From assembly GCA_037501455.1 (NCBI GenBank), contig CM074863.1, positions 58,199,501 through 58,263,500 on the forward strand: DNA of 64,000 bases. Direction: 5' to 3'. This DNA is from Lantana camara. Its lineage: Eukaryota; Streptophyta; Magnoliopsida; Lamiales; Verbenaceae. Below are positions 2,762-62,027 of this stretch, in pieces. Position numbers and translations under genes: made by a program. The notes below the pieces were generated by a model. It ran no database searches. It was not told the DNA's origin and was given only the letters and a program-made list of their open reading frames with translations. The first letter of the stretch is position 1. Each line of letters begins with the position of its first letter.

Positions 2762-5335
2762 TGTAGCACCCGGAACGCCAGGCGCCACATCCCCTACACT
2801 ATAGCCCCAATCCACCTATGAAATGGACAATCCATACATGAATCAAAGCTATAGCGAACGGGAGACAATAAAATGACTCAAGGCTAGGCGGGTACCCTCA
2901 ATTTAAAACCAATTAACAAGTAAGACAGACTATTAAAAAGCGGAAGCAATAACATTCATTAGATATATATAGGTACCATATTTATTTATTTACTTATAGA
3001 TACCAACATTTACACTATCAATACATTATCATCTCCCAACAATATAGATAACAAGGCGATATACAAAATATCCCAAGCTAACTGTACATGAACAAAATGT
3101 GGAATGAAGTGTGCTAGACCCAAATTTAAAACCCTCTAGACTCTAAATTCCCGCCTAGCATGCCCTGCAAAACAACTGAAAAGTTGAGGTGTCAGTCCAA
3201 CTCGGACTGAGCGAGGGGTATAACAAATATAAGGGCACATACATGCAAGTTATAACCTCGGGTAATAATTTTGGAAAACAATACAATCTAATAGGTTAAA
3301 AGAGATACTATCGCCCGAGATTACAACTATTCCAATTTCAATTCAATCAATTCAATACAATCAATTTGTGGCCCGGCGAGTGGGGCAATTCTCCAACCTT
3401 ACACCGACTGTGTACAATCAATCAATCAATTATTAGGTGATTAGGTGATCAGGCAATTCATTAATGTGCACAATTAGCAGTTTCAATAACGCCTTCTTCC
3501 TCCGGGTGATGGTGGGATTGCAAGGCCCCACCATCCAATCAATCTGGGCAGAGGGTACATGAATCCCTAAGCCCGGAACTCCTTCCTCCTCTAATCTCCT
3601 AGAGGGTTCAGGGGTCATCCCAATTTGGTGAGGATAGCTCTCGAGTTACCCGTCAGCCCGTGCTTTCCCGGTTGGCTCGAGTCACTACCCTCGGGCCCAC
3701 AGTGCAATACAATACTCGCCAAATCAATCCATCAATCAATCAATTTCTTTCCAAAAGTTTAGTAAAACATTTGAAAACCAATTCATTTGAAAACTATAAG
3801 TATATAAATAGGTTTTGGCTTAAAACATCACATAGGGTTGTACGGGTCCTATGTATCTAAAATTAAACCTCACCTGAACGACCCAAAATAATCCAAGGAA
3901 ACAGCTCACGGGGCCTGCTCCTCGTCACCAGGAAGCTGGTCTGTGCAAGAAAGACAATTGTCCGTGAAACACGACTCAAAATGTACCAAATATGACGAAC
4001 GGCGGAAATGCAACGAGACGACGGGAAAAATACAATGCACCATAAAAATATCACGTTTCAACATGTATGCGATCATATAACATCAATTAGGGGTCAAAGA
4101 AATGATTGGAGGATGATGATGAAAAATTAATTTTATGCAGTAGCTTTTGCTCTGCAGTCGCCGTGGGAACGGCCGTTCCGGCCTTCCTTTGAAAATGGGA
4201 AGGGCCGTTCCCATGGCTCTCAGAAACGCGCCAGCATTTTTTTAAATTCAAAACGCGTTTTGGGCTGGGAAGGGCCGTTCCGGCTCACAGGCCAAAGTGG
4301 GAACGGCCGTTCCCAGTCTCGCTGGCCTAATGTCTCAGCATCATGGGAACGGCCGTTCCAGTTTTGAACTGGGGTTGGGAATGGCCGTTCCCAAAATACG
4401 TGAGCTGAAGAAGAAGAAGAGCAGAACAGAGCAGCAACAAAACCACAACAACAATCAACCAAAATGGATCCAACTCAAGATAAAATGCACATTTTTGATG
4501 CAATACACATGCTAACATGCATATGGATCAACAATAACTCATAAAAACATATAATCCCACGTTAGATCATCAATATTCAATCATTTGAAACCCACACACT
4601 CATGTATGATCCAAGTTCATAAAACTCAAGATGTATGCACCAAACTCAAGCTTAATGACCACAAACATATTTCCAACAACCAATACACAATTCATTCAAG
4701 CCAATACCAAGCCCTATATTTCACACATTTTCAATAAAATCATTCAATCTCCATAATTACCTCAAAAGAAAGAAATGGAAGAAGAAATGATGAAATGATG
4801 TTGATGATGCTTGTATGGTCACAAATCCCACAAGAATTGATGCTTGGATGATGAAATCTCCCTCCTAACTAGCTAGGGTTGATCACGGTTGAGCAATGGA
4901 AAATGAACAAGGGATGAAATGTTTTTGTATGAAAAAAGAAGCAAATGGTACGTGATGCTGCTCAAGAAGGAAGAAGAGAGAGCCAATTTGCAATTAAATC
5001 CTCCAATTTAGTAAGTTATGCACTCAAGTTCAATCTCATAATTAAATGATCAAACGAGTCCAATGCAATTAGATCCATAGTTCATGAAAATGAGCAATGA
5101 AGGCCATAAAGGAAATAAATCACATTCGGGAAAATAATTCACGTAGCAATCACGTTCAAAATATCCAATAAATATGATATGATATGAATTTTCAATAAAA
5201 TACGAAGAATATAAATTTTTATAAAATTATGTCATGATAGGAAAATGAATTAAATGGTCAATTAATAATTAAATTACAACTCTCAAACGCACACGTGTCG
5301 TTCATACCTGAATTGCCGAAAGCTGGGGCGTTACA
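2762..5335 (-). repeat. 5' LTR of element A
   Basis: This is about 2574 bp, bounded by TG...CA (TGTAACGCCCC at 5335, GGGTGCTACA at 2762). It carries six copies of a GGGAACGGCCGTTCCC-like palindrome (4165-4392) and the paired CTAGGCGG boxes near 2885 and 3155. It also has splice-like signals on the minus strand: donor GAG|GTAATT at 4760, acceptor TTGCACAG at 3941, donor CAG|GTGAGG at 3873 and acceptor TTTTGCAG at 3165. No coding region is credible; short frames here are incidental. Confidence 0.92.
4165..4392. repeat. Cluster of six GC-rich palindromes in LTR A
   Basis: The copies are at 4165-4179, 4197-4212, 4267-4281, 4299-4314, 4345-4359 and 4377-4392. The best is the perfect 16-mer GGGAACGGCCGTTCCC. 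Others differ by one or two bases in the centre (GGGAAGGGCCGTTCCC, GGGAATGGCCGTTCCC) but keep the GGGAA/TTCCC arms. Spacing is irregular (about 30-70 bp), so this is not a simple tandem repeat. The surrounding LTR is AT-rich. Confidence 0.95.
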
Positions 5336-5725
5336 TTCACTGTGTGAACAGTGCTGATCGCTGGAGAAGACGCTGAAGGCTGAGATCTGATCTTTTGCAC
5401 GCAAAACGAGGAAATCCGAGTATATATCTCGGGTCCTCGTACGCAAAAACGATCAAACGAACGAGCTAACGACATCCGAATTGGGCAAACTTAGAGTCTA
5501 CGGACTCGTTTCACCGCCCTGGACGCGTTGAAGGGGTCAAAGAGGTCAAAATCTCGACCGAACGAGAAGTGACCGGAAAACCCCTAAAAGAGAAAATTGC
5601 AAACAAGCCCCTAAACTCTTAAAGAGTTCAAAATAGGGCCACGAAAAATATAAAATCACATAATTAAACACATTAAAAGGTTGAAACGTGGCGTACCTCA
5701 TAAATCGAACGAGCGGGATGTTACA
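5336..5725 (-). repeat. 3' LTR fragment of element C (start of the LTR), cut by element A
   Basis: From 5725 leftwards the minus strand starts TGTAACATCCCGCTCG. Positions about 5373-5725 match 21817-22168 (the start of C's 5' LTR) with roughly nine differences in 353 bp by eye. Homology is less clear in 5336-5372, next to the insertion of A. The rest of this LTR should lie left of the window beyond A. Confidence 0.85.
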
Positions 5726-6045
5726 AACTTCCCTCCTTCAAAAGGACCTGTCCTCAGGTCCTAAGGTCGGATCTTGAACGACGCTGAAACGAATTCTATT
5801 TCAAGCTTCCGCTGCGCAACTCTGGTCTAGGCGAACTGCAATTTCTGCAGGATACTTCTCCCTTAGCTGGCATCAACTCTATTCATGGTGACCAATTGTC
5901 ACTGAAGTTCCACTGAGCACTTGACCGTTGGTCACTTTAACTCATTCGATCACCACTAGGCCACTGCACCCGAAGCTCGATACCGTCGCACCCTCATCGC
6001 TTACTAGCTGCTGTCTGGCCACCTGAACTAAGCCGCAACAAACAA

Positions 6046-6416
6046 GAGAGAATCCCATCTCTCAGCACGCAAGAGAGAGAACCCCGTCTCCCAGCACATC
6101 AAAAGAGAGAACCCCGTCCCTCAGGCACAGAATTGAGAGAACCCTGTCTCTCCACCACGTAATCGAGAGAGCCCCGTCTCTCAACCTAAGTCTGGCAGAC
6201 TTCCACATCTTCCAAACATTCTAGTTTGAGAAAATCCAGCATTTCTCAAACCCTTAAATTCGAGAGAATCCAGCATCTCCCAAATATCTAACACCAAGAG
6301 AATCCAGCATCTCTTGCTCACATAATTAGAAAGAATCCAACATCTTTCTATCACATAAATAGGGAAAATCCCACATCTCCCTAACACATAAATAGAGAGA
6401 TTTCAACAACTCTCTA
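6046..6416 (-). repeat. Array of about 12 small inverted repeats (hairpins) in element C
   Basis: Units have a 6-10 bp stem and a 6- or 8-nt loop. Plus-strand examples are GAGAGA-(ATCCCA)-TCTCTC at 6046-6063, GTTTGAGAAA-(ATCCAGCA)-TTTCTCAAAC at 6224-6251, CAAGAGA-(ATCCAGCA)-TCTCTTG at 6295-6316 and TAGAAAGA-(ATCCAACA)-TCTTTCTA at 6327-6350. Near-perfect ones are at 6360-6383 (TAGGG.../...CCCTA) and 6393-6416 (TAGAGAG/CTCTCTA). Further units start near 6074, 6105, 6135, 6164, 6193 (one mismatch in 7) and 6262. The right half has a period near 33 bp. Stems differ between units but both arms change together, while the loops stay similar. The array lies 0.3-0.7 kb before the PPT in element orientation. 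It is not coding. Confidence 0.88.
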
Positions 6417-8297
6417 GCATACAAGTCCACTTACTCAGCATTCAAACTTACACACGTCAAAATAACACTGGATGCAAAACATGGGATGCATGTATAGTGT
6501 ACCTTTACACGACTGATATCGGTATCCCTAGAGTATAGACTCATCATCCATGCTCAACTCAAGGGGGATATCGCGATGGGATCACTGTAAGAAAAAATTA
6601 TAATATGCATGTAGTTGCATGTAGGGTTAGTGAGCCATTAAGGAAATTTTATAAACACTGAAGCACGAACAATCCACGCAAGCATGTAATCCATTCAGTT
6701 TACAAGAATTCACAACAACAATAAATCTCAAGTTATGGAAATTAAATCAATTAGTCACGTTATTACAATCAAGGCAGCATCACGTAATACACGTCGTCGC
6801 GCACGTCAAGCAAAATTAAATATAATTACTTATGAAATGCATGTGTGCAAATGCCATGAATGCTCAATGTACCGTTCACCGTAGTAGTGGAGTCGAGGTG
6901 GAAAAAAAATTTCTTTAACTTGAAAGGGTAGTCAACTCCTTAACTGCCCGTAGTTCCAACTTCCCGTTCAAATTTTGCATTCTTTAGTACTCCCTCAGAT
7001 TCTCGGGTACCCTAAATGGTCTTGAACCGTCTCACTTGATTCTCAAAGTATAGTGATCCGTGGAGTCCCTTGAAATCCCAATAAAATCCTCGGTAATCGG
7101 AAATTACCATTTCATTCACGGTAAAATCTCTCAGGACAATCGTGGAGAGGTAAATGAAGAATCTTTAAACATTCTTGCTTAGTACAGCGTCGTTGTAAGT
7201 CATGCCCTTATCCTCAATATTTGGTGATGTTGATCTTCAATGACCTCGGCACATAATTCCATAGCTCGCACAATTTTCCCCTTTTCCTTTGTGTAAGTGT
7301 AACTACTCTGGTGGGTGTCTTTATAATAGAAATCCGATTTCCTGCTTGGAATTCTCTGAATGGTACAAGTGTCTTGATTTCTTCATTGTCACCTCACGCC
7401 ATCCAGAGTTAAAAATTCTGGCTTTCTTATAAAATTTGCTGCCCCCCCGAGTACCTCCAAGTAATTTAGTATATATATATATCCTGAAGGCACCTCATTA
7501 GATAAAAGGTCTCTTGTTTCCCCTGTATACAAACATCTTCTTGTATCCACCCAATATCCTGACTGTGTTAGCTTGATCACACATCTTCTGGTTAACCCCG
7601 GTTCGAATCTTAATGTTGCTTCGACCAAGACAGCACTTAGTGGATCAGGTAGGAGAACACCTGAATTACAACCACAAAGCTAATGCATGTGGGGTTAGGG
7701 ATGTAAATGGCATGCACACATATCTAGCAAAGAAGACAATCAATCACGTAAAGCAAATGTTCGAAATAATTATAATTTAATCCAATGCATGATGCACATG
7801 CTATGAATGCATGATACCTGTTTCCTTAATATTAGCATCTAACTATTGTCGAATTCTTTCAGAAGTCCATTTGTCCCTTATTCAATTAATTAGGGCATGG
7901 TAGTGTTGAATCTTCTGTCATCCATTTATAGAAGTGAGAAGTGTTGCCACGATCAATTATAATTTGATGTCGAAGTAACACCCTGCAATTCACAAATGGA
8001 ATAAACATCTATGCATGCGGGTTAGTACGTGGAGATGTCAAGTAACAAAAGCAATTAAGAGCACCTAATTAATGTAGATGCAACAAGTAATTTACTAAAA
8101 TTTTAAAGCATAAAAAAAAAATTGATAATTTTGCAAAAATCGTAATCATAGTGTGCAAATAATCACATAAGCTCAGACAAATTCAAACAGAAAAGTCAAA
8201 ATTTTCACGTCAGACAAATGCAATGCACAAGTATTCCTATGCCGTACGACCTAAACTGACACGACACGACTCCAGAGCACCGGTTCTGAACCTGGTA

Positions 8298-8309
8298 GCT
8301 CTGATACCA
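8298..8309 (-). promoter_or_regulatory. Primer-binding site of element C
   Basis: The minus strand reads TGGTATCAGAGC, 7 nt inside the LTR end at 8317. Its retention supports the idea that C can be reverse-transcribed with proteins from another element. Confidence 0.9.
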
Positions 8310-8316
8310 CTTAAGA

Positions 8317-8946
8317 TGTAGCACCCCAAGCGGTGGGGCACCACACCCCCGCACTATGACCTGACACGTGGTACGAAATGGAAAGTCCGCACACGCACCA
8401 AGTCACAGCGAACGGGTGACAAACGAAAAAAACCAACCTAAGCTAGGCGGTACCTAAACCCTGTACAAGTAAAATATGCAAAAACCCGAATGCGGAAGCG
8501 ATGCAAAGTATGAACTAACAAAAACTTTAATCACCGAACATAAATAAACGGGTTCAACTAATTCCACGAACCTGTCCTAACCTGTCCCGAATTCAAATAT
8601 ACAACAAAGACGGGTTCAACTACTCCATGCCCTGTCCTAACCAGTCCCGAAAATCCATATAATCAAAGCATAAACATCAACTTGTTACCGAACATACTAT
8701 ATACATAATTTTCATAAATAATTCGGAACAAAATACTTAACAAAAATCAAACGGACTGACACAGACTCGACAGACCCGACTCAAAGCCGCCTAGCTCGAA
8801 CTCCAACAACTTGCACTTGCAAACTAAAACATAGATGGGGCGAGGGTCAGTCCACTGACTGAGCGAGGGGGCTGAACTCACACACACTATACATAATAAG
8901 GAGCAAAGCACGTATCAAAAGAAAGATTATGAACCGGGAGTAGGGT
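8317..8946 (-). repeat. 5' LTR of element C, left piece (LTR 3' end)
   Basis: It begins TGTAGCACCCC (the complement of an LTR end in GGTGCTACA). It shares the 3'-terminal layout of the other LTRs here: an AGCGAACGGGTGAC-like block, the paired CTAGGCGG boxes near 8445 and 8785, and the GACTGAGCGAGGG block. It is broken at 8946 by element B and continues at 19098. The last 5 bp (AGGGT, 8942-8946) are the target-site duplication. Confidence 0.88.
8942..8946. repeat. Target-site duplication of element B, left copy (AGGGT)
   Basis: AGGGT lies immediately before the TG of the 5' LTR and recurs immediately after the CA of the 3' LTR (19093-19097). A 5-bp duplication is usual for Ty3/gypsy integrases. 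Confidence 0.93.
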
Positions 8947-11620
8947 TGTAACGCCCCGGTTTCCGGATGAACAGGTAAGCACGCCACGTGTGAGTTTGAG
9001 CGTAGGTTTTATTTTATTTCTTTAATTTATAATATATTCGTACGTGGCATTCACATTTTATAAAATTCATGAAACATTATTTATATCAATTCTTTAAATT
9101 CATATCATTGAAAATATTATTTCATGGCACGAAAAATATTTATTGCATGAAATCAATTACCGAGAGTGATAAAATTACCAAATTGTCCCTAGTTGAATAT
9201 TTCCTAAAACTCTAGGGACTCAATTGCATAAACTATTAGGGACTTGATTGAGCATATTTTAAATTGTTGCATACCTAATTGCATAACTTAAAGTCTTAAA
9301 GGATTTATTGGCAAAATTGAACTTTTCACCCAAACCAAGAATGGATGTATCGGTATAAGCTTCCTCAAGCTTCTTTGATCAATTTTATCCCAAAATTTGC
9401 TAAACACAATTGCTCTCTCTCTCGGTTCTTCAAGAAGAAAAAGGGAAGAAGATAATTTTTCATCAATCATCAAGATTTCAAGGAATTAACCAAGCTTTTG
9501 AGAGTTGATCATCATCTTCATCCATCTTCTTCATTTCTTAGCTTTCAAGGTTGGTTTGCATGGAAATGATGATTTTGATCATTCATGGGATAGCTAGGGT
9601 TTGAGTTTATTATGCTAGTTCAATTCTTAGTTGTGTTGAGCATGATTATAAGATGATAACATGAATTATGGCATGAATTCTAGCTTGGATATTTGAATAT
9701 TTGGCATGAATGATCAAGTTTGGTCATGAACTTGAAAGCATGGATTCTTGATGATATTTCATGGTTTTATGTGTTTAAGTGTTACCTTATCATTTATTGA
9801 ACATGTTTGCATCATATTTCCAGAAATTATGGCATTTGGGATCAAAATTAAAATTGTTGTTGCTTTGTTGAATCTTTCCCGAGAGCATACTCTGTTTTGC
9901 TCTGTTTTTTCATTTCCAGAACTTGGGAACGACCGTTCCCAGCCTCTAGGCTTTGTGGGAACGGGCGTTCCCACCTTTCAAATCAAATATGCGCGGCCGA
10001 CTATGGGAACGGCCGTTCCCATTTTGGCCTTGGAGCCGGAAGGGCCGTTCCCGGCTAAGGCGCGCTTTTAAAAATGGAAAACGTTGCCGCGTTTTCTGGG
10101 CAACGGGAACGACCGTTCCCAGTTACAAAGGAAACCTGGAACGGCCGTTCCCAAGGGGCTGACAGAACAAAATTCACTGCATAAAATTACGATTTTGACC
10201 CCTCGATCCAACGACTTCTTTGACCCCGAATTGCTATAATATGTGTTAATATGATGTGAAACGAAAAGTTATAATACCACATTGCATTTTTGTGATCGTC
10301 TCGACATGTTTTCGCCGTTCGTCCTATTTTGGTCATTTTAGGTCATTTCTCATGAATGTACGTCGTATTTGCACAGGTCACGAGGGCGTGGACGGGGAGC
10401 AAGCTCCTTAGAACGCTTCTTTATTATATTTTGCAAGAAAGGTGAGGTTTGGTTTTGGTAAAATAAACCCTACAACCCTTATGTGTGAGTTTTCGGCCAA
10501 AACCTATTGTATTTATAAACGTTTTTAAAGTAATGAACATTTCAAGCATGAAAGTATTAATTGTCATGGTTTTCAAGCAAGTTTGGCGAGTACATGATTG
10601 CACGTGGGCCCGAGGGTAATTCTTGAGCCAACCGGGAAAGCAAGGGCTGACGGGTAACTCCTGAATTATCCTCACATTGTTGGGATCACCCCGAAGCCAC
10701 TAGGAGATTAGTGGTGGAAGGAGTTCCGTGTCTAGAGGGTCATGTCCTCTACACACACCATGTCGTGGATAGTCGAGCCTTGCAAACTCGCTATCACCCG
10801 GAGGAAGAAGGAGACTGGGGATTAATCCGGCATGTCGGGTTATCCTCGGGTTATTGCATGTTTTCAAGTATGAAATTGTCTATGTGAGCACTAAAGTATA
10901 TTGCATGATCACTTATTTATCAAACAAGCAAGCATGACCACGTATTGTTCACGATTGGGAGTTCGGTTGGAGATTGCCCTTGCTCGCCGGGGCCACATGT
11001 TCATGATATTGACAAGCATGATTAATTAAACGGGTTAAAATGGATAGTTGTAATCTCGGGCAAAAGATAAGATTTCTTGAACTACATAATTATTGTTTTC
11101 TAACGTCTTTACCCGAGGCTACAACTTGCATGTGATGTGCGTTATATTTATTTATTGCCCCTCACTCAGTCTTCGGTAGACTGATACTTCACTTTTCAGG
11201 TACATTTTGAGCGTGGTCGTACTAGGCGGGAGTTGGTCGAGTCTTGCATCGTCACGAGCCTAGCTTGTACCTTTCATGTACATACTTTTGCTAGTTATCA
11301 TGTCATGTTATGATTAGTATATTTTGAATACTTAGATATGTATATAATTGAGAAATGATAATGTATTGATAGTAAGATTTGGTACCTATATGTATCTATG
11401 AAATAAATATGGTACCTATACGTATGATTGAATTTACTGCTTCCGCTTTTCTATTCATGTTGTTGTTGTTGTTTATGTTGGGGAGAGTGTCCCGCCTAGA
11501 GCGTCGTTTTTGTTGTCACCCGTTCGCTGTGGTCTTGGTTTATGTATGAACTGTCCATTTCATACGTGGATCGAGGCTATAGTGCGGGGGATGTGGCGCC
11601 TTGGGGTCTAGGGTGCTACA
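8947..11620 (+). repeat. 5' LTR of element B
   Basis: It runs TGTAACGCCCC...GGTGCTACA. It has six palindromes at 9925-10152, CTAGGCGG boxes near 11222 and (inverted) 11487, and AATAAA-like signals near 11402. Splice-like signals are donor AAG|GTTGG at 9550 (weak), acceptor TTTGCACAG at 10376, donor AAAG|GTGAGG at 10442 and acceptor TTTTCAG at 11199. Short frames inside it have no recognisable product. Confidence 0.97.
9925..10152. repeat. Cluster of six palindromes in 5' LTR of B
   Basis: The copies are at 9925-9940 (GGGAACGACCGTTCCC), 9957-9972 (GGGAACGGGCGTTCCC), 10005-10020 (GGGAACGGCCGTTCCC), 10037-10054 (a variant with extra CCGG/CCGG ends), 10105-10120 and 10138-10152. Arms are kept and most variation falls in the central two bases. 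The cluster spans 228 bp, the same as in LTR A. Confidence 0.96.
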
Positions 11621-11628
11621 TCTACAGG

Positions 11629-11640
11629 TGGTATCAGAGC
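11629..11640 (+). promoter_or_regulatory. Primer-binding site of element B
   Basis: TGGTATCAGAGC starts 8 nt after the LTR end and is complementary to the initiator-Met tRNA 3' end. The leader between it and gag (11641-11875) has no ORF I would support and ends in the splice-acceptor-like TTACAG-GATG. Confidence 0.94.
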
Positions 11641-11875
11641 CCGGTTGCAAAACCGAGGTTCTCGAGTCGTGTCGAGTCAGTCTAGGTCGCACGGCATAGG
11701 ATTATGTGGTATTTGGGAGTCTGCATTGGGTTGATTTACTTGAATTACTCCCTTATTCGCATTAATTGAATTAATTGATCTTCCTTGAATATGTGTTACT
11801 TGACATTATTGAAATTATATGCACACATTTGCATTTATTGATCAAGCCACGCATGTTTAGTGATTTAATTACAGG

Positions 11876-14800
11876 ATGGAGCCCGACAGACATTACAGTG
11901 ATCGATCCTCGAGGCACAGGCATCATCATCGCCGACATCATCGCCACGAGAGATCACCACCTCCTCCACCTGCCCAGGCACAGCCCCAGGATTTTATGAA
12001 CGCAGTAGTGGGGCTAATCGATCAAAGGTTACAGGAAAGGGTCACTCCACCACCTCCAGCACCAGTAGCACCTCCGGAGAACCCCATTTCTGCTATCTTG
12101 CGAGAGTTTCAGAATCAGCGTCCCCCGAAGTTCTATAAGGGAGACGACATCCAGGCAGAGATGTGGTTGAAGGAGATCGAGAGGATTTGGCAGCTTATCC
12201 CTTGTGACAGTCAGGAGAAGGCCCGCTGCACACTTACTCTTATTCAGGGCGAGGCCTACTCCTGGTGGGAGAGCACAGAGATCGTTCTGGAGGCAGCCGG
12301 GACCGAGATTAATTGGGAGGTTTTTGTACGGGAGTTCAGAAACAAGTATATTCCTCCAGCTTCCCGTACCCGCAGGTTGAGAGAGTTTACAGAGTTAAAG
12401 CAGGGAGGCCGATCCGTGGGTCAGTACATCGCCGAGTTCGAGAGGCTTTCTCGCTATGCACCCAATATAGCGAACGACGACTTTCACAAGGCGATGCAGT
12501 TTGTTCAGGGGTTGAGACCGGACAACCAGGATGCACTGAAAGCGGCTAATACGAGCACCTGGGCAAAGGCTACTGCAAAGGCCCTGAAGGTGGAAGATTC
12601 TGATATAGCTAGGAGGGCTACTCAGCGAGCAGGACAGGTTTCTGGCTCGAGATCAGGCCAGGGTTCGAGTTCAGGAAAAAGGCCGATGGTTTACTCTGCA
12701 CCTCCAGCTCAGAGGGATACTGGAAAGAAGCCTAAGTTCACCGGGCCAGCACAGAAGGGTCCAAGAGCTCCAGCACCACCCCAGCCACCTCAGAGACCGG
12801 GATGTAGATGGTGTGGAAATCCTACGCACACCTATGATAATTGCAGACGCCGGTTAGGTCTATGTTTGATTTGCGGGAGCAACGAGCACCGGGTCGATGG
12901 TTGTCCGGATCGTCAGGATCCACCACCTGCAGGACCGAGGCCACTGGTGAGAGCTCGAGCTTATGCACTTGCCGGAGAGGAGCAGGAGGCTGATGTTGAC
13001 CCCGCTGCAGTAGTTGAAGGTACTATTTGCATCCATGGCACGAACATCCATACATTATTTGATCCAGGAGCTACACACTCCTTTCTTGCGCACTCTATTG
13101 CTATCACTTTGTCTTTGCCTGCTATGTGTACTTCTGTGCGCTATATAGTTAGTACTCCTTTTGGTAGTAGGCGAGAGACGGATCAGGTTTTCAGGGATGT
13201 TCCAGTTGTGATTGAAGGTCGGGAGTTTCTGACAGATTTTATTGTTATGCCGATGGAGAGGTACGGGGCTATTTTGGGGATGGAATGGTTATACAGGCAT
13301 TGTGCTACTGTAGATTGCCGGGCTAAGAAGGTTCAGTTGGGTTCAGAAGTTACTACGGGCTGTACTTCGAAGACTGTACCCCTACTTTCATTCTCAGAGG
13401 CTCAGAGGTTAGTCAGGGACGGGGCTACAGGGTTCATTGCTTACATTCTGAACAAGCCCAAAGATCAGGTGAAATTGGAGGACACAGAAGTGGTAAAGGA
13501 ATATCCCGAGGTATTCCCAGAGAAATTGGATTCTTTGCCTCCCGAGCGAGAGATTGAATTTGTGGTTGATCTTTTCCCGAATGCTGAGCCGTATTCAAAG
13601 ACTCCTTATCGGATGGCTCCAGCTGAGTTGAAGGAATTAAAAGTGCAGCTTGAGGCTTTGTTGGAAGTTGGGTACATTCGGCCGAGTTCTTCGCCGTGGG
13701 GAGCACCGGTATTGTTTGTAAAGAAAAAGGACGGGACTCTAAGAATGTGCATCGATTACAGGGAGTTGAACAGGATGACTATTAAGAACAAGTATCCTCT
13801 CCCACATATCGAGGAGTTGTTCGATATACTCCAGGGTTCTAAGGTGTATTCGAAATTGGATTTAAGGCAGGGATACTATCAGCTGCGAATCCGAGCCGAG
13901 GACATTCCAAAGACGGGACTCAATACTCGGTACGGGCACTATGAGTTCGTGGTTATGCCGTTTGGATTAACTAACGCCCCTGCAGCTTTCATGGATATGA
14001 TGCACCGGATACTCAGGCCTTTCCTCGACAAGTTCGTGGTGATATTTATCGATGACATTTTGGTCTTCTCAAAATCAGCCGAGGAGCACGCGAGACATCT
14101 CAGGCTCGTTCTTCAGACCCTAAAAGAGCATCAGTTATTTGCTAAGTTCAGTAAATGTGAATTTTGGATAGATCGGGTTTCTTTCTTGGGGCATGTGATT
14201 TCAGGAAAAGGATTGGAAGCCGATCCCTCGAAAATTGAGGCCGTGCTTAAGTGGGAGAAACCAAAGAACGCCTCGGAGATTAGAAGCTTCTTGGGGTTGG
14301 CCGGTTACTACAGAAGATTTGTTCAGGACTTCTCTAAGATTGCTGCACCCTTAACCCGGTTGACAAAGAAGGATGTTAAATTTGTCTGGGACGAAAAGTG
14401 TGATCAAAGCTCTAATTTTCTGAAAGAAAAATTAGTCTCAGCTCCGGTATTAACCTTACCCGAAGGTTCAGAAGAGTATGCAGTGTATACAGATGCTTCT
14501 AAAGAAGGCTTAGGTTGTGTTTTGACTCAGAAAGGAAAAGTGATCGCCTATGCTTCTCGAAAGCTAAAGGAATATGAAAGGAATTATCCGACACACGACC
14601 TAGAGCTTGCATCCGTGATCTTTGCGTTAGGGAAATGGAGACATTATCTTTACGGGACTTCTTTCGAGATTTTTACCGACCACAAGAGCCTCCAGTATTT
14701 ATTCACGCAGAAGGACTTGAATATGAGGCAACGGCGTTGGATGGAAAAGTTGGAAGATTATGATTGTACAATTAAATACCATCCCGGGAAAGCCAATGTG

Positions 14801-16381
14801 GTTGCCGATGCACTTAGCAGGAAGGCGAGTGTATCGAGTTTAGAAATAAAGGAAAGTAAGGAAGTTGTCCCGATTGTGTTAAAGGCTCGGGTTTCTAATA
14901 TCACAGTTCAGCCGGAATTGAAGTATCGGTTATTCGAGGCTCAGAATCAGGATTCGGAGGTACAGAAGCTTGCCGGTAAAGCTAAGGATGACCCGGAAAG
15001 TCCGTTTGGGTTTGATGAGACCGGGTTGCTTCGGTTTAAAAACAGAGTGGTAGTACCTGAAGAATTGAGACGGGTCCTACTCGAAGAAGCTCACAAGTCA
15101 GCCTACTCGATCCACCCCGGAGGAAACAAAATGTATAAGGATTTGAAGCAGTACTATTGGTGGAACGGGATGAAAAGAGACGTGGCAGAGTATGTGAAAC
15201 ATTGCCTGACTTGTCAGAAAGTGAAAGCTGAGCATCAAAAACCCGCGGGACTTCTACAGCCGTTACCTATTCCCGAGTGGAAGTGGGAACAAGTAACGAT
15301 GGACTTTGTTTCTGGATTACCGAAGGTTAAAGGCGGGTTTGATGGAATTTGGGTAATCGTGGATAGGTTTACCAAGTCTGCTCACTTTCTACCGATCCGG
15401 ATGTCCTATAAGATCCCGAAGTTGGCTGAAATCTATAACCGGGAGATCATTCGACTTCATGGTATTCCGGTGAGTATAGTTTCAGATCGAGACCCGAGGT
15501 TTACTTCTAAGTTGTGGCAGGAATTACAGGCTGTCTTGGGTACGAAACTTAAGTTTAGTACAGCTTTTCACCCTCAAACAGATGGTCAGACGGAAAGGTT
15601 AATCAGGTATTTGGAAGATCTTCTTCGGGCTTGCGCGATGGATTTTCAGAACTCGTGGTCAGAACAGCTTCCCTTGATAGAGTTTGCTTATAATAACAGC
15701 TTTCAGGCTTCGATCGGGATGGCTCCTTACGAGTTACTTTATGGAATAAAGTGCCGATCTCCGTTGTTCTTCGACTTGGAAGAGTGGAAGTGGTCGAAAC
15801 AGGAAGGGGTAAAGAAAGGTGAAAGATTCAAGAGGCCTTCCAGAGTCGTTCAGGCTATGATTGAAAAGGTTCAAACGATTCAACAACGGATGAAAGCCGC
15901 GCAAGATAGACAGAAGAGCTATGCTGATAAGCGCCGAAGGGATCTAGAGTTCGAAGTGGGTGACCGGGTATTCTTGAAGGTGGCACCAAGGAAAGGTTTC
16001 ACCCGGATCGGGAAAGGAGGAAAGCTGAATCCTCGCTATTTAGGTCCGTTCGAGATTCTTGAAAGAATAGGCGAGGTAGCCTATCGACTGGACCTACCAC
16101 CGAGTCTCACGGGAATTCACAACGTGTTCCACGTATCTCAGCTGAGGAAATATTACACCGATGAGACTACGATTCTCCCCGTGGAAGAAGTTGAGCTGGA
16201 ACCGAATTTGTCATTTATTCAGAGACCGGTTAAGATTATGGATCGGAAATTTCAGGAATTGAGAAACCGGAGGATTCCCATGGTTAAAGTATTGTGGAGA
16301 AGCGATAAAACCGAGGAAGCCACTTGGGAAACCGAGGATAAGATGAAACGGTTCCACCCGGAATTATTTGAGCAAGATTAG
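11876..16381 (+). CDS. gag-pol: Gag-pol polyprotein of element B (intact, 1501 aa)
   Basis: This single frame encodes all proteins needed for transposition. The order is a His/Arg/Ser-rich N-terminus and proline run; Retrotrans_gag domain (about residues 70-240, PPKFYKG, SWWES); two CCHC knuckles (from C310 and C330; CX2CX4HX4C); protease with D396-P-G-A-T-H-S-F; RT with LDLRQGYYQ (D662) and FIDD (D726, D727); RNase H with TDASKEGLG (D873); integrase with an HHCC zinc site (from about H1073) and a DD35E triad D1143, D1204, E1240; then a GPF/GPY-like module ([18 protein letters not shown]) and a chromodomain-like tail (about 1446-1501, WETEDKM). The chromodomain would direct integration to modified chromatin. 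The ATG at 11876 is the first in frame and aligns with gag starts of A and M. The stop TAG at 16379 precedes the PPT by about 25 nt. I see no break. Confidence 0.97.
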
Positions 16382-16405
16382 AGAATCTGGGGACCAGATT
16401 CTTCT

Positions 16406-16418
16406 AAGGGGGGGAGAG
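16406..16418 (+). promoter_or_regulatory. Polypurine tract of element B
   Basis: A purine run AAGGGGGGGAGAG lies directly before the 3' LTR. It primes plus-strand synthesis. An equivalent tract precedes each other 3' LTR in the window. Confidence 0.92.
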
Positions 16419-16419
16419 T

Positions 16420-19092
16420 TGTAACGCCCCGGTTTCCGGATGAACAGGTAAGCACGCCACGTGTGAGTTTGAGCGTAGGTTTTATTTTATTTCTTTAATT
16501 TATAATATATTCGTACGTGGCATTCACATTTTATAAAATTCATGAAACATTATTTATATCAATTCTTTAAATTCATATCATTGAAAATATTATTTCATGG
16601 CACGAAAAATATTTATTACATGAAATCAATTACCGAGAGTGATAAAATTACCAAATTGTCCCTAGTTGAATATTTCCTAAAACTCTAGGGACTCAATTGC
16701 ATAAACTATTAGGGACTTGATTGAGCATATTTTAAATTGTTGCATACCTAATTGCATAACTTAAAGTCTTAAAGGATTTATTGGCAAAATTGAACTTTTC
16801 ACCCAAACCAAGAATGGATGTATCGGTATAAGCTTCCTCAAGCTTCTTTGATCAATTTTATCCCAAAATTTGCTAAACACAATTGCTCTCTCTCTCGGTT
16901 CTTCAAGAAGAAAAAGGGAAGAAGATAATTTTTCATCAATCATCAAGATTTCAAGGAATTAACCAAGCTTTTGAGAGTTGATCATCATCTTCATCCATCT
17001 TCTTCATTTCTTAGCTTTCAAGGTTGGTTTGCATGGAAATGATGATTTTGATCATTCATGGGATAGCTAGGGTTTGAGTTTATTATGCTAGTTCAATTCT
17101 TAGTTGTGTTGAGCATGATTATAAGATGATAACATGAATTATGGCATGAATTCTAGCTTGGATATTTGAATATTTGGCATGAATGATCAAGTTTGGTCAT
17201 GAACTTGAAAGCATGGATTCTTGATGATATTTCATGGTTTTATGTGTTTAAGTGTTACCTTATCATTTATTGAACATGTTTGCATCATATTTCCAGAAAT
17301 TATGGCATTTGGGATCAAAATTAAAATTGTTGTTGCTTTGTTGAATCTTTCCCGAGAGCATACTCTGTTTTGCTCTGTTTTTTCATTTCCAGAACTTGGG
17401 AACGACCGTTCCCAGCCTCTAGGCTTTGTGGGAACGGGCGTTCCCACCTTTCAAATCAAATATGCGCGGCCGACTATGGGAACGGCCGTTCCCATTTTGG
17501 CCTTGGAGCCGGAAGGGCCGTTCCCGGCTAAGGCGCGCTTTTAAAAATGGAAAACGTTGCCGCGTTTTCTGGGCAACGGGAACGACCGTTCCCAGTTACA
17601 AAGGAAACCTGGAACGGCCGTTCCCAAGGGGCTGACAGAACAAAATTCACTGCATAAAATTACGATTTTGACCCCTCGATCCAACGACTTCTTTGACCCC
17701 GAATTGCTATAATATGTGTTAATATGATGTGAAACGAAAAGTTATAATACCACATTGCATTTTCGTGATCGTCTCGACATGTTTTCGCCGTTCGTCCTAT
17801 TTTGGTCATTTTAGGTCATTTCTCATGAATGTACGTCGTATTTGCACAGGTCACGAGGGCGTGGACGGGGAGCAAGCTCCTTAGAACGCTTCTTTATTAT
17901 ATTTTGCAAGAAAGGTGAGGTTTGGTTTTGGTAAAATAAACCCTACAACCCTTATGTGTGAGTTTTCGGCCAAAACCTATTGTATTTATAAACGTTTTTA
18001 AAGTAATGAACATTTCAAGCATGAAAGTATTAATTGTCATGGTTTTCAAGCAAGTTTGGCGAGTACATGATTGCACGTGGGCCCGAGGGTAATTCTTGAG
18101 CCAACCGGGAAAGCAAGGGCTGACGGGTAACTCCTGAATTATCCTCACATTGTTGGGATCACCCCGAAGCCACTAGGAGATTAGTGGTGGAAGGAGTTCC
18201 GTGTCTAGAGGGTCATGTCCTCTACACACACCATGTCGTGGATAGTCGAGCCTTGCAAACTCGCTATCACCCGGAGGAAGAAGGAGACTGGGGATTAATC
18301 CGGCATGTCGGGTTATCCTCGGGTTATTGCATGTTTTCAAGTATGAATTGTCTATGTGAGCACTAAAGTATATTGCATGATCACTTATTTATCAAACAAG
18401 CAAGCATGACCACGTATTGTTCACGATTGGGAGTTCGGTTGGAGATTGCCCTTGCTCGCCGGGGCCACATGTTCATGATATTGACAAGCATGATTAATTA
18501 AACGGGTTAAAATGGATAGTTGTAATCTCGGGCAAAAGATAAGATTTCTTGAACTACATAATTATTGTTTTCTAACGTCTTTACCCGAGGCTACAACTTG
18601 CATGTGATGTGCGTTATATTTATTTATTGCCCCTCACTCAGTCTTCGGTAGACTGATACTTCACTTTTCAGGTACATTTTGAGCGTGGTCGTACTAGGCG
18701 GGAGTTGGTCGAGTCTTGCATCGTCACGAGCCTAGCTTGTACCTTTCATGTACATACTTTTGCTAGTTATCATGTCATGTTATGATTAGTATATTTTGAA
18801 TACTTAGATATGTATATAATTGAGAAATGATAATGTATTGATAGTAAGATTTGGTACCTATATGTATCTATGAAATAAATATGGTACCTATACGTATGAT
18901 TGAATTTACTGCTTCCGCTTTTCTATTCATGTTGTTGTTGTTGTTTATGTTGGGGAGAGTGTCCCGCCTAGAGCGTCGTTTTTGTTGTCACCCGTTCGCT
19001 GTGGTCTTGGTTTATGTATGAACTGTCCATTTCATACGTGGATCGAGGCTATAGTGCGGGGGATGTGGCGCCTTGGGGTCTAGGGTGCTACA
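16420..19092 (+). repeat. 3' LTR of element B
   Basis: It matches 8947-11620 except, by eye, for G/A at about 9145 vs 16618, T/C at 10291 vs 17764, and one A missing near 18345. The palindrome cluster recurs at 17398-17625. It is flanked on the right by AGGGT. Confidence 0.97.
17398..17625. repeat. Cluster of six palindromes in 3' LTR of B
   Basis: This is an exact copy of the 9925-10152 cluster at an offset of 7473 bp, as expected for paired LTRs. Confidence 0.95.
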
Positions 19093-19097: not shown

Positions 19098-22000
19098 TTT
19101 GCATACCAAAAACCATTTTCAAATCGAACTTATACATATCTTATCAAATCAAACTTATATGTATCTTATCTTATTCAAACTTATACATATCTTATCTTAT
19201 TCATAACTTAACAAACTGAGCAAACTCATATTTTATTAGAAGAGAAAACTCCTATCCCGTTTCATAATCAACATAACATATCATAATCATATACCCGGCG
19301 AGTACGGGTCTCCCACCTTACTTCCATATCGAATCATACGTATCAAATCAGAAAACAAACAAATATCATAAACAATCCAACCCCAACACCATGTAGTTCG
19401 GGGAGCAAACCCTCACTACTCATACAGATACAAACACACACGGGGTAGCGAACCCACACTGTGCCTTCCCCGGTTATCCACCGAGGGCTCAAGATACCAT
19501 GCCTTGCCAACCTCCATAGGTCGCACGTGAATATCTCAAATGAGAACGTACACAGGGGTCATAACCGGCGACCCCATGGTAGTCCCGGGTCCCCCTTACC
19601 CACGTCTCGGGGCCCAACACACCAGAACATAGCATATCAGAACAGATCATAACTCGCTACATACCAAACTTATCATATCGAATCCAAATCAATACTTACG
19701 TACCTTATCGGAGCATACCTTACCTTGCAACTTAGCATATGCTATAAACGTACCTCTCCGTGTCATCCTAATCCGCAGCTGGTATGAAGACACACGGTTT
19801 GGAGCATAGCCTCGTTGCAAAACATTTCAATCTTACGTATGCTCGTACATATACAGTTCGAAAACCTTTAATCGTATGACAAATCATAAACGTATCGTAT
19901 AAACACATATCTATTATATAAATATAATAGAATAATCGCATGCAGGCTTGAAAACGAGCACAGAAGGTTATACGTCGCTTTAACTAAACAAAAACCCTAA
20001 AACCTCACCTTACACCGACGAAACGGAAAAAATCTGAGCCAAGAAGTCCCACTGGAACCCAAACAGCTGACAGACACTCTCTGGAAAACCCCCTGAACAA
20101 CTGAACACACATAGAACACAAGACTAAGACTCCAAACACAACCACAACAACGCACGGCCATGCTCACGAATACAAATGATGCAACATATAATTCATATTC
20201 ATTCAGAGCATATTATAATTCATATTACATATACAGAGATACATAGCTTAAAAATTCATAACATTTATTACATAAAATAAATCAAGACATCATAAATTTA
20301 ATTATTATCAAGTACTAGGTCTCTAGACAAATAAACACGAATTGCATATCCATCCTATACATAAATCCATAATTGCAATACCCTTAAACTCACCTCACAA
20401 CTAGGCATATATTCGAATGGAGCAATTAAATCAAACAAGGGTCAATCTTAATTAATTACATAAAACAAATTAGGATATTAGGAATTTCATTCATATCACG
20501 CATCAAGTCTTGTGGGAATAAAACATAAATTTCATAATCAATTAGTTTCTAAAATTACACTAACATCCCCTTAAATAATAATTATTCTCAAGTAGATAGG
20601 CGTAAAACGAGGCAAATAAATTCCATAAATCACGAATCAAGCTTACATACATCATAACATATTTTCAAGTATCATACAACTCATAATTTCAATTTATAGC
20701 ACATACAGGATCGAATTGCACAATTAAAACAATTAACGAAAATAAATACAATAACTTCAAAAATTCATATAAAATCAACCAGACATCCGATTGACGAACG
20801 GAAAGTGGCGATGGACTCACCACGACGAAAGGAGCTTGCTGTCCGAAGGGCGTCGGAATGCCGCCACCGTAGCCGGCCGAACAGCCACCGGCCGCCACCG
20901 GAACGCCACCTCCGGTGGTCGGAAAAATCCCCGGAAGGACAGAAACGTACGCCTCGGCCTGCTTGACAAAAGCCCTCAACCAATTTTAGAAAATAGCAAA
21001 CACGCCGGACTTCGTTGACGAAAAACAGAACCAAATCCCGACGAAAATTGAAATTAAACACAAACCGTAAAACGAAAATGAAATCCGAACATACCGTTGG
21101 AAAGCTCGTAACGAGCCCTTCAAAAGCCCCTAGCCAAAACATTGGAAAAACCGCCGGAAAAAGCCCGCCTGTTTACAGCCGGTTCACCACCGGTTCGCCG
21201 CCAACGGCCGGTTCTCGAGTCGGGGCCAACACTACCAGCTACGTCGCAACATTCCAAGCAACTTTCGTGAAGGAGCAACCACCAAAAACCCACCGGAAAA
21301 GCTTCAAACCGTCGCCCAAAAACCCACCGCCGCGCCACTCGCCGGTTTAGCCATCTCCGGCCACCGTTTGCTCAAATTGACCCCGGAATCGGACTCAGGA
21401 GGCCAAAATACGTTGGAAACCACCAAAGGCCGGTCACGAATCTCGCCGGAACGCGGCGGAACGAGGTGCTACAGTGCACGCGCCACCGCCGCCGGTCTTC
21501 AATCGGCGCGTGCGCCGCCGTCCGGCCACCGTTGGCCATGCCGTTTGAACTGGAATTGCGCCGGGACCTCCTCTAACAAATGGGGTGGCGCGTGTCGTCG
21601 GAATGTCGCCGAAAACCGCCGTAAGAAGGCGGCGAAGTGACGGGTGTTCGTTTCGCCGCCGCTGTTGTGCCGTAGCCCCACCACCGCTGAGTTTCGGGTC
21701 TCGATTCTTGTATCATCGTGACGGGCTCGTCGAGTTGATGAATTTCGACTAATGGTTCGTCAAATTCCCTCAAGAAACGAGGGAGAACGGGCATGTGTGT
21801 GAAATCGCACCTTCACTGAAGGCTGAGATCTGATCTTTTGTACACAAAACGAGGAAATCCGAGTATATATCTCGGGTCCTCGTACGCAAAAACGATCAAA
21901 CGAATGAGCTAACGACATCCGAATTGGGCAAACTTAGAGTCTACGGACTCGTTTCGCCATCCCGGACGCGTTGAAGGGGTCAAAGAGGTCAAAATCTCGA

Positions 22001-22168
22001 CCGAACGTGAAGTGACCGGAAAACCCCTAAAAGAGAAAATTGCAAACAAGCCCCTAAACTCTTCAAGAGTTCAAAATAGGGCCACGAAAAATATAAAATC
22101 ACATAATTAAACACATTAAAAGGTTGAAACGTGGCGTACCTCATAAATCGAACGAGCGGGATGTTACA
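19098..22168 (-). repeat. 5' LTR of element C, right piece (LTR start)
   Basis: This is the continuation of the LTR piece 8317-8946 after removing element B; the two pieces together are about 3.7 kb. The minus strand starts TGTAACATCCCGCTCG at 22168. Near 19295 it has the CCCGGCGAG block, and near 19460 the CCTTCCCCGGTT block, both seen at the same place in other LTRs. It contains an unusually GC-rich stretch (20790-21720). I found no clear palindrome cluster of the kind seen in the other LTRs; a short CGGCGC-GT-GCGCCG inverted repeat near 21505 is the closest. The right flank ACAAG (22169-22173) should be the target-site duplication, with its partner off-window. Confidence 0.85.
20790..21720. 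other. GC-rich CCGG/CGCCG block within LTR of element C
   Basis: This block is rich in CCGG, GCCGCC and CCACCGG motifs, unlike the AT-rich LTR around it. Open frames exist on both strands (for example 21015-21350 plus and 21120-21338 minus), but their composition follows the GC bias. I recognise no domain. It could be a captured host fragment or a CpG-rich regulatory stretch. Confidence 0.5.
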
Positions 22169-22566: not shown

Positions 22567-25500
22567 TGTAACACCCCGGCGGAGGGCAATCACATCCTAC
22601 CCCGCGCTAAGGTTCTAGCTCGTATATGAAACTGACATCCATATATGCGCCGTTCCCAAAGCAAGCGGTGACGGACAAACAACCTGGCTAGGCGGTACCT
22701 AAACAACTCGACTCAACGCGCCGTAAAGAAGCAACAGACATGCGAAAGCGAGCATAAATTTTTTCAACAAACGTGTAGCATGCAATCGGAATCAATTCAT
22801 TAACGTCAATTAACAAGATCAATCACGCATCACACAGTTCAACGGGTTCAAGAGCATGCAACCTGTCCCGACAAGGAATAATATAAATACGGGTTCCACT
22901 CCCTAGGCACCTGTCTCGAAACAAAATCATAAATACGGGTTCAACTACCTAAGCACCTGTCCCGACAGGATAATATATCCAAATATCATTGGATCATCAC
23001 GATCACAACCTGTACAATTTTCATAAACGGAATTCATACAAGAATGTAACATTTCTAACTATATCATAATGTCCACCAAGGCTAATGAAAGCATTAAACC
23101 ATAACAACATACATAACACCAACTTTAAGTAAATGCAGACTCGACACAACTTGTACGAGCCAAGACTCTACGACACACCGCCTAGCAAGACTCCTGAAGA
23201 CCTACAGACAATACAAAGGTTGAAGAGTCAGTTCAAAATGAACCGGTGAGGATGTACTCTAAGGAATATAATAAAAAGGGGGTACAATGCATGCGATATT
23301 AAAGGTGTTTATGATCCGTTTAACTTTCCAAAATCAATGCAAAGGGGTTTTCAAAACAACGGATCACAAACTAGAAACATAACCGGCTCGGCGAGAATGA
23401 GCCCTCCAACCTTACTTCCCAAACCAAAGAAATCAAACCAATCCATCCATCACACCATTGATGTCGAGGGTGTGCACCCCCGATCATCCATAACATAGAG
23501 AATTTGGTCCATGAAACCTAGCTCTCTCCAAGAAGACTTCAACCCCGAAACCTCCTCGGAGTCTTAGTAATCTTATCCACAGTGGGAACTTTGGATAAGG
23601 ACATCCGTCGGCCCTTGCCTTCCCGGAATATCACTCACCTCCATCCCCGAGCTCAAGTTCGATTTCCCCAAGCAAGCGTCGCTGCAAGGTACATCAATCC
23701 CCATACCACTTTCGTAGCATGGTCCAAAACATCTCGCCACATACGTACATATATATCCTTTTCAAAACCAAAACATTTCGGGTACCTATCCCGTATAACA
23801 AGATTCATACTATAGTTGCAAACCGTTTTCAATAAGCAACGATATAAGTATAATGATCCAAGCTCCCAAAATCCGGCATACTATGCCTATACATATAGTT
23901 TTCAAAACGGGAATTTGAGAACCAAATCATGAAGGCTATACGGTATTGTCCACAGTTTGAAAACATTTTAATAATATAACTCATCACCTTTACCAAGAAC
24001 CTCAAAGGTCGACCACGAGCAACGGACTACTCGGTCGGAGACTCACCACCTAATAAGACAAACGTACTAACAAAGGTGAGACTCGACACAAACCAAGTAA
24101 ACGACGCACGACTTAAGTAACAAGTCACTTATGAGAGTTATGAATGCTTAAGGAGTCATATCATGCACTTAATGAAATGTGAGGATCAATCATGAGCATG
24201 TATAGCATGTCAAGGTCACACATAGCGTAGGAAGTCATACAAGTTCAACTAAATGCATAACTTAGCAAAATGTAACAACTTAAACTTGATCAAGGCAATA
24301 ATATCATATCAAGTGATATGCAAGAAGTTCCACCACATATAATACGGCCACAACTCATTAAAGGTATTATAGAAACAAGAAAAGGACATACAAGAGTCAA
24401 AACAAGCGAAACAAGTCAAGAAAACAAGGCTGGGGAAAATCCACCCCCAAGGATTTTCCTTCACAAAAAATCCACCCTCGCGGATTGTCCAGAAGCTACT
24501 GCCTCAAATCCACCCCCATGGATTTTTACACAGCAAAAATCCACCCTAGTGGATTCTGCCCAGAACTTAAAAAAAACGTGACAGCCACTTCGAACTTGAC
24601 GGGAATGAGTTCTAAACACCCCCAAAACATGAAATTAAGATTCCAAAACCTCAATTAAGCTCATAAAACATTCATACATCATATAAGAACATAATATAAG
24701 CATAAAATCCAAGAATTAAATCATTTAAGCAAGAATTACATATATGCATAAAAGCTTTATAGTTCAAGCATGTTCTTCAATGGTGAATCTCTAATCCTAG
24801 CATGAATTCAACTAAAATTGATTCCAAACCTCATAAAAACTCAAGCATAATCATTCTACAACACCAAGATTGCAAGAAATCAAGTAAATCTTAGACATAC
24901 AAGAATTTCTCAAGAAAGCTTCAAAGGTCATCAATGGTGGATTCTTCAAACAAGCATGAAATCAAGAAATACTTACATCAAATTGTTCCTAACACCATAA
25001 GAATCACATTTCCAACAAGAAATTCAAATTCAATCCAACATACAAGAACCCTAGTTCAAATTCAAGTCAAGAAGCTCAAGAACATAAAACCATGGAAGTA
25101 GCACACAAAGCTTGCCTTGAGAGCTGAAAATAGAAGAGAATAACTTGGTCTTGAGTCTCGAATTCCCAGCTTCAATCTCCACTCTTGCCTCTTGAAGATG
25201 CTTGGAGGTGTTCTTGGTGTTCTTGGAGAAGATGAATAGGCTAGAGAGAGTTTGTGTTTAAATCTTTGTGAAATAACGTAAAATGGCTTGTGGGTGTTAA
25301 AATCTGATTTAGGGATTTGGGTCAGCTATTAGGGTCACGAACCGGGTCAATTAGAGCGGGTCATAAGTGAAATTGGGTCTCAAATTAGGCCAAATTCGGA
25401 ATGGGGTCATAAGTCTTATAAAAAGGTTGACTTTTCGTAAAATGGCCATAACTTCTTCGTCCGAACTCCAAATCGAGTGATTCAAAAACCCACAAACTCG

Positions 25501-28313: not shown

Positions 28314-28531
28314 TTATTTAGTGTTTGGATGATTGATCCCTTCTCGAGCATCGTGTCATCAGTGTGAGGGAATCTCGACATCTTCTAAAACCACCTGCTT
28401 CCGATCGTAGCCAAAGTAAACCGAACACAAAGCACAACAACGAGTAGAGAACCCCGTCTCCAAACAAACAATTGAGCAATCTAGGTTAAGTCTCTTCTTA
28501 CTTAACCCGATGCTCTGATACCACCTCAGGC
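28314..28531 (-). mobile_element. Leader fragment of element F with PBS
   Basis: The right part (about 28472-28531) matches G's leader next to its LTR (43180-43238), including the PBS at 28512-28523. The left part has no match I recognise, apart from a GAGA-ACCCCG-TCTC hairpin near 28448 like those in element C. It is abruptly joined to E's RT at about 28313, so F's gag-pol and E's 5' half are missing. Confidence 0.75.
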
Positions 28532-35146: not shown

Positions 35147-35165
35147 AAAGAATCCGTCCTCGGAT

Positions 35166-48935: not shown

Positions 48936-48950
48936 AGGACAGGTCCTTTT

Positions 48951-48962: not shown

Positions 48963-48964
48963 TC

Positions 48965-62012: not shown

Positions 62013-62027
62013 GGGCAAGTCCTTTTT

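Follow-up and report, generated by a model that had tools for sequence, protein, structure and literature searches.

Tandem hairpins with covarying stems in a non-coding LTR retrotransposon of Lantana camara and their possible role as a cis-acting RNA element

Results

Element C and its surroundings

The window, i.e., the whole 64-kb stretch of Lantana camara DNA that was analysed, is a nested stack of plant LTR retrotransposons in which element C lies on the minus strand. The non-coding interior of element C occupies approximately 2.6 kb (5726..8315, minus strand; borders read from the sequence) and includes a primer binding site (PBS; 8298..8309, minus strand), which reads TGGTATCAGAGC on the sense strand and which we take to be of the initiator-methionine tRNA type, and a polypurine tract (PPT; 5728..5738, minus strand). 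The alignable part of the 3' LTR (5373..5725, minus strand) shared 97.5% identity with the start of the 5' LTR, as measured over 354 bp with one flanking base included and with the 3' LTR only partly visible. The 5' LTR is present as an end piece (8316..8946, minus strand) and a start piece (19098..22168, minus strand), which together give an LTR length of about 3.7 kb. The two pieces are separated by a plus-strand element (8947-19092) that is flanked by the target duplication AGGGT and whose own LTRs are 99.8% identical. The alignment of the 3' and 5' LTRs of C (5337-5372 against 21779-21815) ends after 354 bp, short of the next insertion, and this break may reflect a chimeric LTR or a rearrangement.

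The initial annotation of this DNA had described element C as devoid of coding capacity, which was borne out by the analysis. The longest sense stop-to-stop frame in the interior has 96 aa, and a tblastn search with the window's own proteins found no recognisable coding sequence in it, the best match having an E value of only 0.01. Across 32 interiors (the window and 31 copies picked by their array), the longest sense frames ranged from 64 to 117 aa. Element C looks non-autonomous. A candidate helper family is represented in the window by a coding element that ends at 48963, whose 3' end, PPT and LTR start match those of C; 52 nt at the 3' end of C are 86.5% identical to positions 48913-48963. 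This element codes close up to its PPT and has an integrase C-terminal domain together with a Chromo match (E 2.9e-5) of 24.3 bits, just below the Pfam cut-off of 25.1. A search of it with the model R1 found no array.

Composition of the hairpin array

The 3' half of the C interior carries an array of 12 inverted-repeat units (6046..6416, minus strand). About 12 consecutive inverted repeats had been proposed here, and they proved to be real: all 12 were located, and under a strict rule for perfect hairpins (arm of at least 6, loop of 4-12) the array contains eight, whereas 500 dinucleotide shuffles gave 0.52 on average and four at most. The array had also been placed just upstream of the PPT, which was loosely put, since about 300 nt lie between the PPT and the end of the array. 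Units U1 to U5 (6046..6182, minus strand; U1 6046-6063, U2 6075-6092, U3 6105-6122, U4 6135-6152, U5 6165-6182) have 6-bp stems and 6-nt loops of the ACCCCG type, with near-invariant arms and diverged spacers. Units U6 to U12 (6193..6416, minus strand; U6 6193-6214, U7 6224-6251, U8 6261-6282, U9 6295-6316, U10 6327-6350, U11 6360-6383, U12 6393-6416) have stems of 7-10 bp and 8-nt loops of the ATCCAGCA type, and their arms covary between units. Neighbouring units in the left half are spaced by 29-30 nt and those in the right half by 33-34 nt. The two loop types are as given in the initial annotation. On the sense strand, the loops contain GG in 11 of the 12 units.

The two halves also differ in how their units resemble each other. 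The mean pairwise identity in U1-U5 was 1.00 and 0.87 for the two arms, 0.73 for the loops and 0.37 for the spacers, and in U7-U12 it was 0.68 and 0.63 for the arms, 0.80 for the loops and 0.64 for the spacers; adjacent units have spacers in common. A coding (peptide) repeat, which had been prompted by the 30- and 33-nt periods, was rejected, as spacings of 29 and 34 nt also occur and none of the six frames is free of stops across the array, where the longest open stretch is a sense frame of 73 aa in the right half. Rfam at the gathering score gave no match in the whole window, and the array pattern had no match in viral contigs. Two bacterial loci that came from the genome-contig pattern search were unrelated, being short repeats in which the model matches never extend to full stems, and two matches of the model R1 in the window, at 54022 and 62198 (E 2.8), were taken as chance.

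A hairpin scan of the 64 kb found equal density at two other sites, at approximately 9.7-10.2 and 17.2-17.7 kb, which correspond to a palindrome cluster in both LTR copies of another element. Palindrome clusters of the GGGAACGGCCGTTCCC type are present in the LTRs of two element families (4166-4394, 9924-10151 and 17397-17624). Furthermore, four short inverted repeats whose 8-nt loops end in GGGT on the sense strand, one of them a perfect 9-bp hairpin, were found at 24434-24560 (minus strand), in the LTR of an element with a PPT near 25840.

Paired changes between units

The initial annotation had described inverted repeats throughout the array; not all of their arms are perfect. In the inner eight pairs of the 12 units (96 cells, sense strand), 79 cells were Watson-Crick, seven G.U and none A.C, and the remaining ten were neither Watson-Crick nor G.U. 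Pairing between units was assessed by re-dealing one arm among the units. With an arm of 8 in U6-U12, 49 of the 56 cells were Watson-Crick against a permutation mean of 37.1, a value that was reached by one of the 5040 permutations, the true assignment itself; with G.U counted, the figures were 53 of 56 and 45.1. These units are sisters, and the permutation tests overstate their independence. A covariation count gave 94.6% of the 56 cells paired against 80.9% when shuffled (0/500), with five of the eight pairs changed on both sides, and the covariation score was 0.571 against 0.291 (0/500). All of the covariation measures dropped when the partner arm was slid, and RNAalifold recovered the same eight pairs. 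An alignment that spanned both loop classes misaligned them and was not used.

In U1-U5, there was no excess of pairing over arm permutations; one arm is identical over six bases in all five units, and the other arm has two changes, neither of which is matched on the opposite side. The compensatory stem changes that had been claimed for the array are thus found in U6-U12 and not in U1-U5, whose arms hardly vary. The outcome that had been named as contrary to the claim, arms that diverge with no pairing excess over shuffles, was looked for and not found.

Which strand pairs

Each of the 12 units, when isolated, is more stable on the sense than on the antisense strand, and the seven sense G.U pairs are A.C mismatches on the opposite strand. 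In arm shuffles, G.U made up 63% of such cells, which gives seven of seven a chance of about 0.04 after composition; no shuffle in 20000 reached zero A.C, and a G.U minus A.C difference of at least seven was reached in 2619 of 20000. The folding z-score of the array was -6.9 for the antisense and -4.6 for the sense strand. When pairs in the interior were limited to 40 nt, the sense values were 0.20 for U1, 0.01 for U2, 0.03 for U3 and at least 0.96 for U4-U12, and the antisense values were 0.99, 0.04 and 0.77 for U1-U3 and at least 0.69 for all units except U2. Without a limit on pair span, sense values ranged from 0.02 (U3) to 0.99 (U10). Five of the 14 sequences printed from the genome loop-pattern search carry a form of U8 whose antisense G.U pair is an A.C on the sense strand. 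Overall, we consider the sense RNA the probable paired molecule; our confidence was lowered because the z-score is stronger on the antisense strand and U1-U3 form poorly on the sense strand. A role at the DNA level or pairing in an antisense RNA is less favoured.

Copies across the genome and diversity by site

In the host genome (1.27 Gb, 378 contigs), a query with positions 6000-6500 gave 4358 first-look candidates, and the best 40 of these that were scored comprised the window and 39 others at 95-97%. A loops-only pattern, which is silent on most stem letters and counts overlapping matches in one array twice, had 2076 matches genome-wide (973 forward, 1103 reverse) against none for the reversed control. 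Such candidate numbers are lower bounds or first-look counts. The initial annotation had recommended collecting other copies of C and held that an array unique to this copy would speak against its reading; the very many copies contradict such uniqueness. Among the array-selected copies (best 40), all 12 units were present in 37 and 11 units in three, a unit being counted when at most one of its inner six pairs was unpaired. In this sample, which was chosen by the array and is therefore biased in its favour, diversity was lowest in stems (0.019), followed by loops (0.025), spacers (0.039) and flanks (0.067). One row, L014_5000, a partial second copy, was left out of the diversity, unit and variant counts of this sample. 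Across the 31 interiors and the window, identity was 0.972-0.984 over 6026-6385, 0.78-0.96 over 5906-6025 and 6386-8125 and 0.93-0.98 in the leader (8126-8315); the 3'-most part (5726-5905; 0.93-0.99) is present in few of the 31 copies.

A control sample was picked by the mid-interior (7000-7500; 929 candidates, best 40 scored), and 37 of its 39 non-self matches were used, the other two being already in the array-selected sample. The array was present in 32 of the 37, in some only partly. Pairwise alignments, in which positions near gaps were masked, were used because the multiple alignment misplaces units where copies gained or lost one; the raw multiple alignment gave diversities of 0.084 for stems, 0.112 for loops, 0.123 for spacers, 0.102 for the right flank and 0.224 for the left flank. 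In the pairwise alignments (n = 32), the corresponding values were 0.048, 0.080, 0.079, 0.100 and 0.233. Mann-Whitney tests that treated sites as independent separated the stems from the spacers (p 0.013) and likewise from the right flank (p 0.010). Stems were also the lowest class when sites were split by base: their diversity was 0.059 at C/G sites, where the other classes had 0.109-0.214, and 0.040 at A/T sites, where the others had 0.044-0.258. Loops and spacers of the control sample did not differ (p 0.62), nor did stems and spacers when U1-U5 were taken alone (p 0.27). Unit number differs by about one between copies, L061 being longer and L074, L078 and L083 shorter.

Copies L011-L048 fall into two subfamilies, one that matches the full 5726-6500 and one that matches from approximately 5918 only and has a different stretch ahead of its 3' LTR. 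In L031, 1.2 kb separates two arrays, and an LTR piece lies between them; these represent tandem or recombined C elements.

Shared and private stem variants

Stem variants were compared among 72 copies (39 array-selected, 32 control and the window), in which 808 of the 864 units were usable and 56 with gaps were dropped. Variants found in at least three copies kept pairing in eight cases and broke it in three, whereas among singletons 16 kept and 42 broke it (Fisher p 0.0065); with variants in at least two copies, the numbers were 16 and 13 (p 0.012). Singleton transitions gave 16 G.U and 17 A.C, and shared ones gave six and two, a difference that is not significant (p 0.17). The shared variants that break pairing are at U3 pair 6 (A.C, three copies), U11 pair 3 (A.C, eight copies) and U8 pair 10 (five copies); some of those that keep it also sit at stem ends. 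A change in a single copy would mostly be decay after insertion, and one in several copies would have passed through transposition. The G.U version of U7 pair 5 had 68 genome-wide matches and the G-C version had none. Among the copies that were compared, no unit had both arms changed together between copies; the covariation is seen between the units of one array and not within one unit across copies.

Hairpins at the polypurine tracts

A single hairpin with an AGGA loop adjoins the PPT of C (5743..5762, minus strand), and PPT-adjacent hairpins were found at five other 3' ends in the window (16382-16402, 48929-48946 and 62005-62022, plus strand; 25849-25867 and 35150-35167, minus strand). In these six element 3' ends, the loops are AGGA, AGGG or GGA, and there are five different stems as judged by the outer six pairs. 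All 36 of the outer pairs are Watson-Crick against a mean of 25.0 with the arms re-dealt, and this count was reached by two of the 720 permutations because two elements have an identical stem. The figure of 36 is the gap-free count; the aligned count of 73.7% paired was lowered by a gap that the aligner placed within the stem. A window-wide scan for a GG-loop hairpin ahead of a purine run found 12 distinct places, six of which are the examined 3' ends, and the hairpin is present in 34 of 39 C-family 3' ends. The PPT hairpin is possibly a general cis element of these chromoviruses. An exact 14-nt copy of the U2 core (GAGAACCCCGTCTC) lies at 28447-28460 in the 5' leader of another minus-strand element, about 50 nt from its PBS (28512-28523). 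These hairpin observations are post hoc and suggest no more than that the RNAs concerned have GG-loop hairpins as a recurring motif.

Discussion

By its anatomy, element C is LARD-like. As in LARDs, such as Sukkula of grasses, long LTRs with a PBS and a PPT enclose a gene-less interior that is present in many copies and whose mobilisation in trans is assumed. The LTR of C is of multi-kb length (about 3.7 kb), the interior is non-coding across the family (32 interiors, of which the 31 non-window copies were chosen by the array) and the array provides a conserved RNA secondary structure, a feature that has been stated for LARDs and TRIMs in the parts of the literature that we consulted (PMC7215508). 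A tandem array of covarying hairpins is not mentioned in the portions of the LARD descriptions that were compared, and the ends of C match a putative chromovirus of the same window; the likeness is one of description. TRIMs have short LTRs and hardly any interior, unlike C with its LTR of about 3.7 kb and interior of 2.6 kb, and the hammerhead ribozyme that retrozymes carry in their LTRs was not found, as there were zero Rfam matches in the window.

Tandem repeats in the non-coding part ahead of the 3' LTR are shared with Retand and related Ty3/gypsy elements, for which, in the sections consulted, family-specific repeats between pol and the 3' LTR are described (PMC11963269). These elements differ from C in being protein-coding non-chromoviruses, according to the same sections, and the words hairpin, secondary structure and inverted repeat are absent from the main text of that paper. 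The packaging signals of retroviruses and of BARE resemble the array in being short stem-loops with purine-rich loops, and for the former recognition by Gag is known, as stated in the excerpt available to us (PMC8096270). The retroviral stem-loops SL1-SL4 are an example, as far as the passages seen describe them (PMC3902901). Those signals are few and near the 5' leader, whereas the array of C has 12 units and lies in the 3' half; the likeness is of kind and not of sequence. Stem-loops upstream of or around the PPT of retroelements, for which a systematic search has been called for in the part of that work consulted (PMC3601003), resemble the single PPT hairpin of C, and the array is separate from it, about 300 nt off. 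Among the matches listed from the open full-text literature, seen in part and with subscription papers mostly outside it, there was no covarying tandem hairpin array in an LTR retrotransposon. LARD anatomy and 3' tandem repeats were thus known already; relative to the literature covered, in so far as it was seen, an array of hairpins with covarying stems is new.

We hold with fair confidence that the pairing of the stems is under selection and has not only been copied by hairpin correction. Such selection, acting in active lineages, explains most simply why stem diversity is low and the U1-U5 stems are constant amid drifting spacers, why the changes in U6-U12 are paired and why the shared variants tend to keep pairing. 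That the pattern points to a base-paired feature, as the initial annotation suggested, agrees with how the array behaves in lineages that have transposed. As a whole, our preferred reading, at somewhat less than even strength, is that the array is a selected cis RNA element of a LARD-like transcript, probably a multimerised docking site for a chromovirus Gag. The genomic transcript would fold into a row of short hairpins, in which the pairing of the stems and not their letters would be maintained and the loops would expose unpaired G; the array would dock the Gag (nucleocapsid part) of an autonomous chromovirus, and the RNA would then be packaged and reverse-transcribed in trans. The packaging and trans-mobilisation of C are inferred. 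Given the rest, naming Gag as the partner and packaging as the step is a tentative assignment. A Gag docking array is our best guess because the loops carry GG, Gag recognises exposed purines and BARE2 is packaged by a relative: retroviral Gag is described, in the excerpt consulted, as recognising structured RNA with exposed purines (PMC8096270), and the Gag-less BARE2 is, according to the portion seen, packaged by BARE1 and has retained its packaging and dimerisation signals (PMC3735527). A more specific version, in which twelve-fold docking by many weak hairpins would let C compete with its helper and would use the same GG-loop hairpin type as the chromovirus PPTs and one leader behind its PBS, is speculative and we think it unlikely. 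Dimerisation had also been proposed; a kissing-loop form of it is not favoured, since loops such as UGCUGGAU and CGGGGU are not self-complementary on inspection. On the sense strand of C as contained in the window, three of the 8-nt loops have no exact complement, and complements of some 6-nt loops do occur there.

The main rival, which we regard as somewhat unlikely, is self-templated correction of palindromes. Slippage or unequal exchange would have multiplied a single quasi-palindromic unit, and within each hairpin one arm would have been copied onto the other through a template switch in the course of reverse transcription or replication, giving paired changes with no selection on RNA. It would agree with a unit number that varies by about one between copies, with the common spacers of neighbouring units, with the other palindrome clusters in LTRs of the window and with covariation that appears between units rather than within a unit across copies. 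This rival gives no reason to expect lower variability in stems than in spacers and flanks, more frequent retention of pairing among shared variants than among singletons, or constant U1-U5 stems next to drifting spacers.

An RNA structure that serves another purpose appears quite unlikely; it might assist plus-strand priming or the transfer of strands in the PPT region, the export of the RNA or the stability of the transcript. The position of the array in the 3' half of the interior would suit it, as would the covarying GG-loop hairpin that six elements carry right beside the PPT and that 34 of 39 C-family 3' ends have, and the stem-loops mentioned around the PPT of other retroelements in the part of the source consulted (PMC3601003). 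The array itself is about 300 nt from the PPT, however, and is not needed for reverse transcription as such, because the candidate helper that ends at 48963 has a PPT hairpin without an array. Dyad sites at the DNA level, either double-stranded binding sites or cruciforms, are improbable; inverted repeats do exist in DNA, the antisense strand pairs well too and one U8 form pairs better on the plus strand, but one would expect a sequence-specific site to be conserved in sequence, and the arms of U6-U12 vary while still pairing; moreover, the seven sense G.U pairs are mismatches on the other strand. The small-RNA source that the initial annotation had also offered, in which small RNAs would be cut from the hairpins, was not supported and is highly improbable, as arms of 6-10 bp are much shorter than known plant Dicer-like substrates and Rfam gave no match in the window at the gathering score. 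In its favour, the part of a maize study that was available to us describes a correlation of small RNAs with short secondary structures of transposable elements (PMC10760457).

How gene-less LTR elements are selected for packaging from among all other RNAs is a largely open question in plants. The array of element C is discrete, countable and present in high copy, and its short fragments suit structure probing and Gag-binding tests. Its copies form a natural mutational record in which shared and singleton variants separate the changes that transposition tolerated from later decay. If the array is indeed a packaging signal, this signal would be multivalent and far from the 5' leader.
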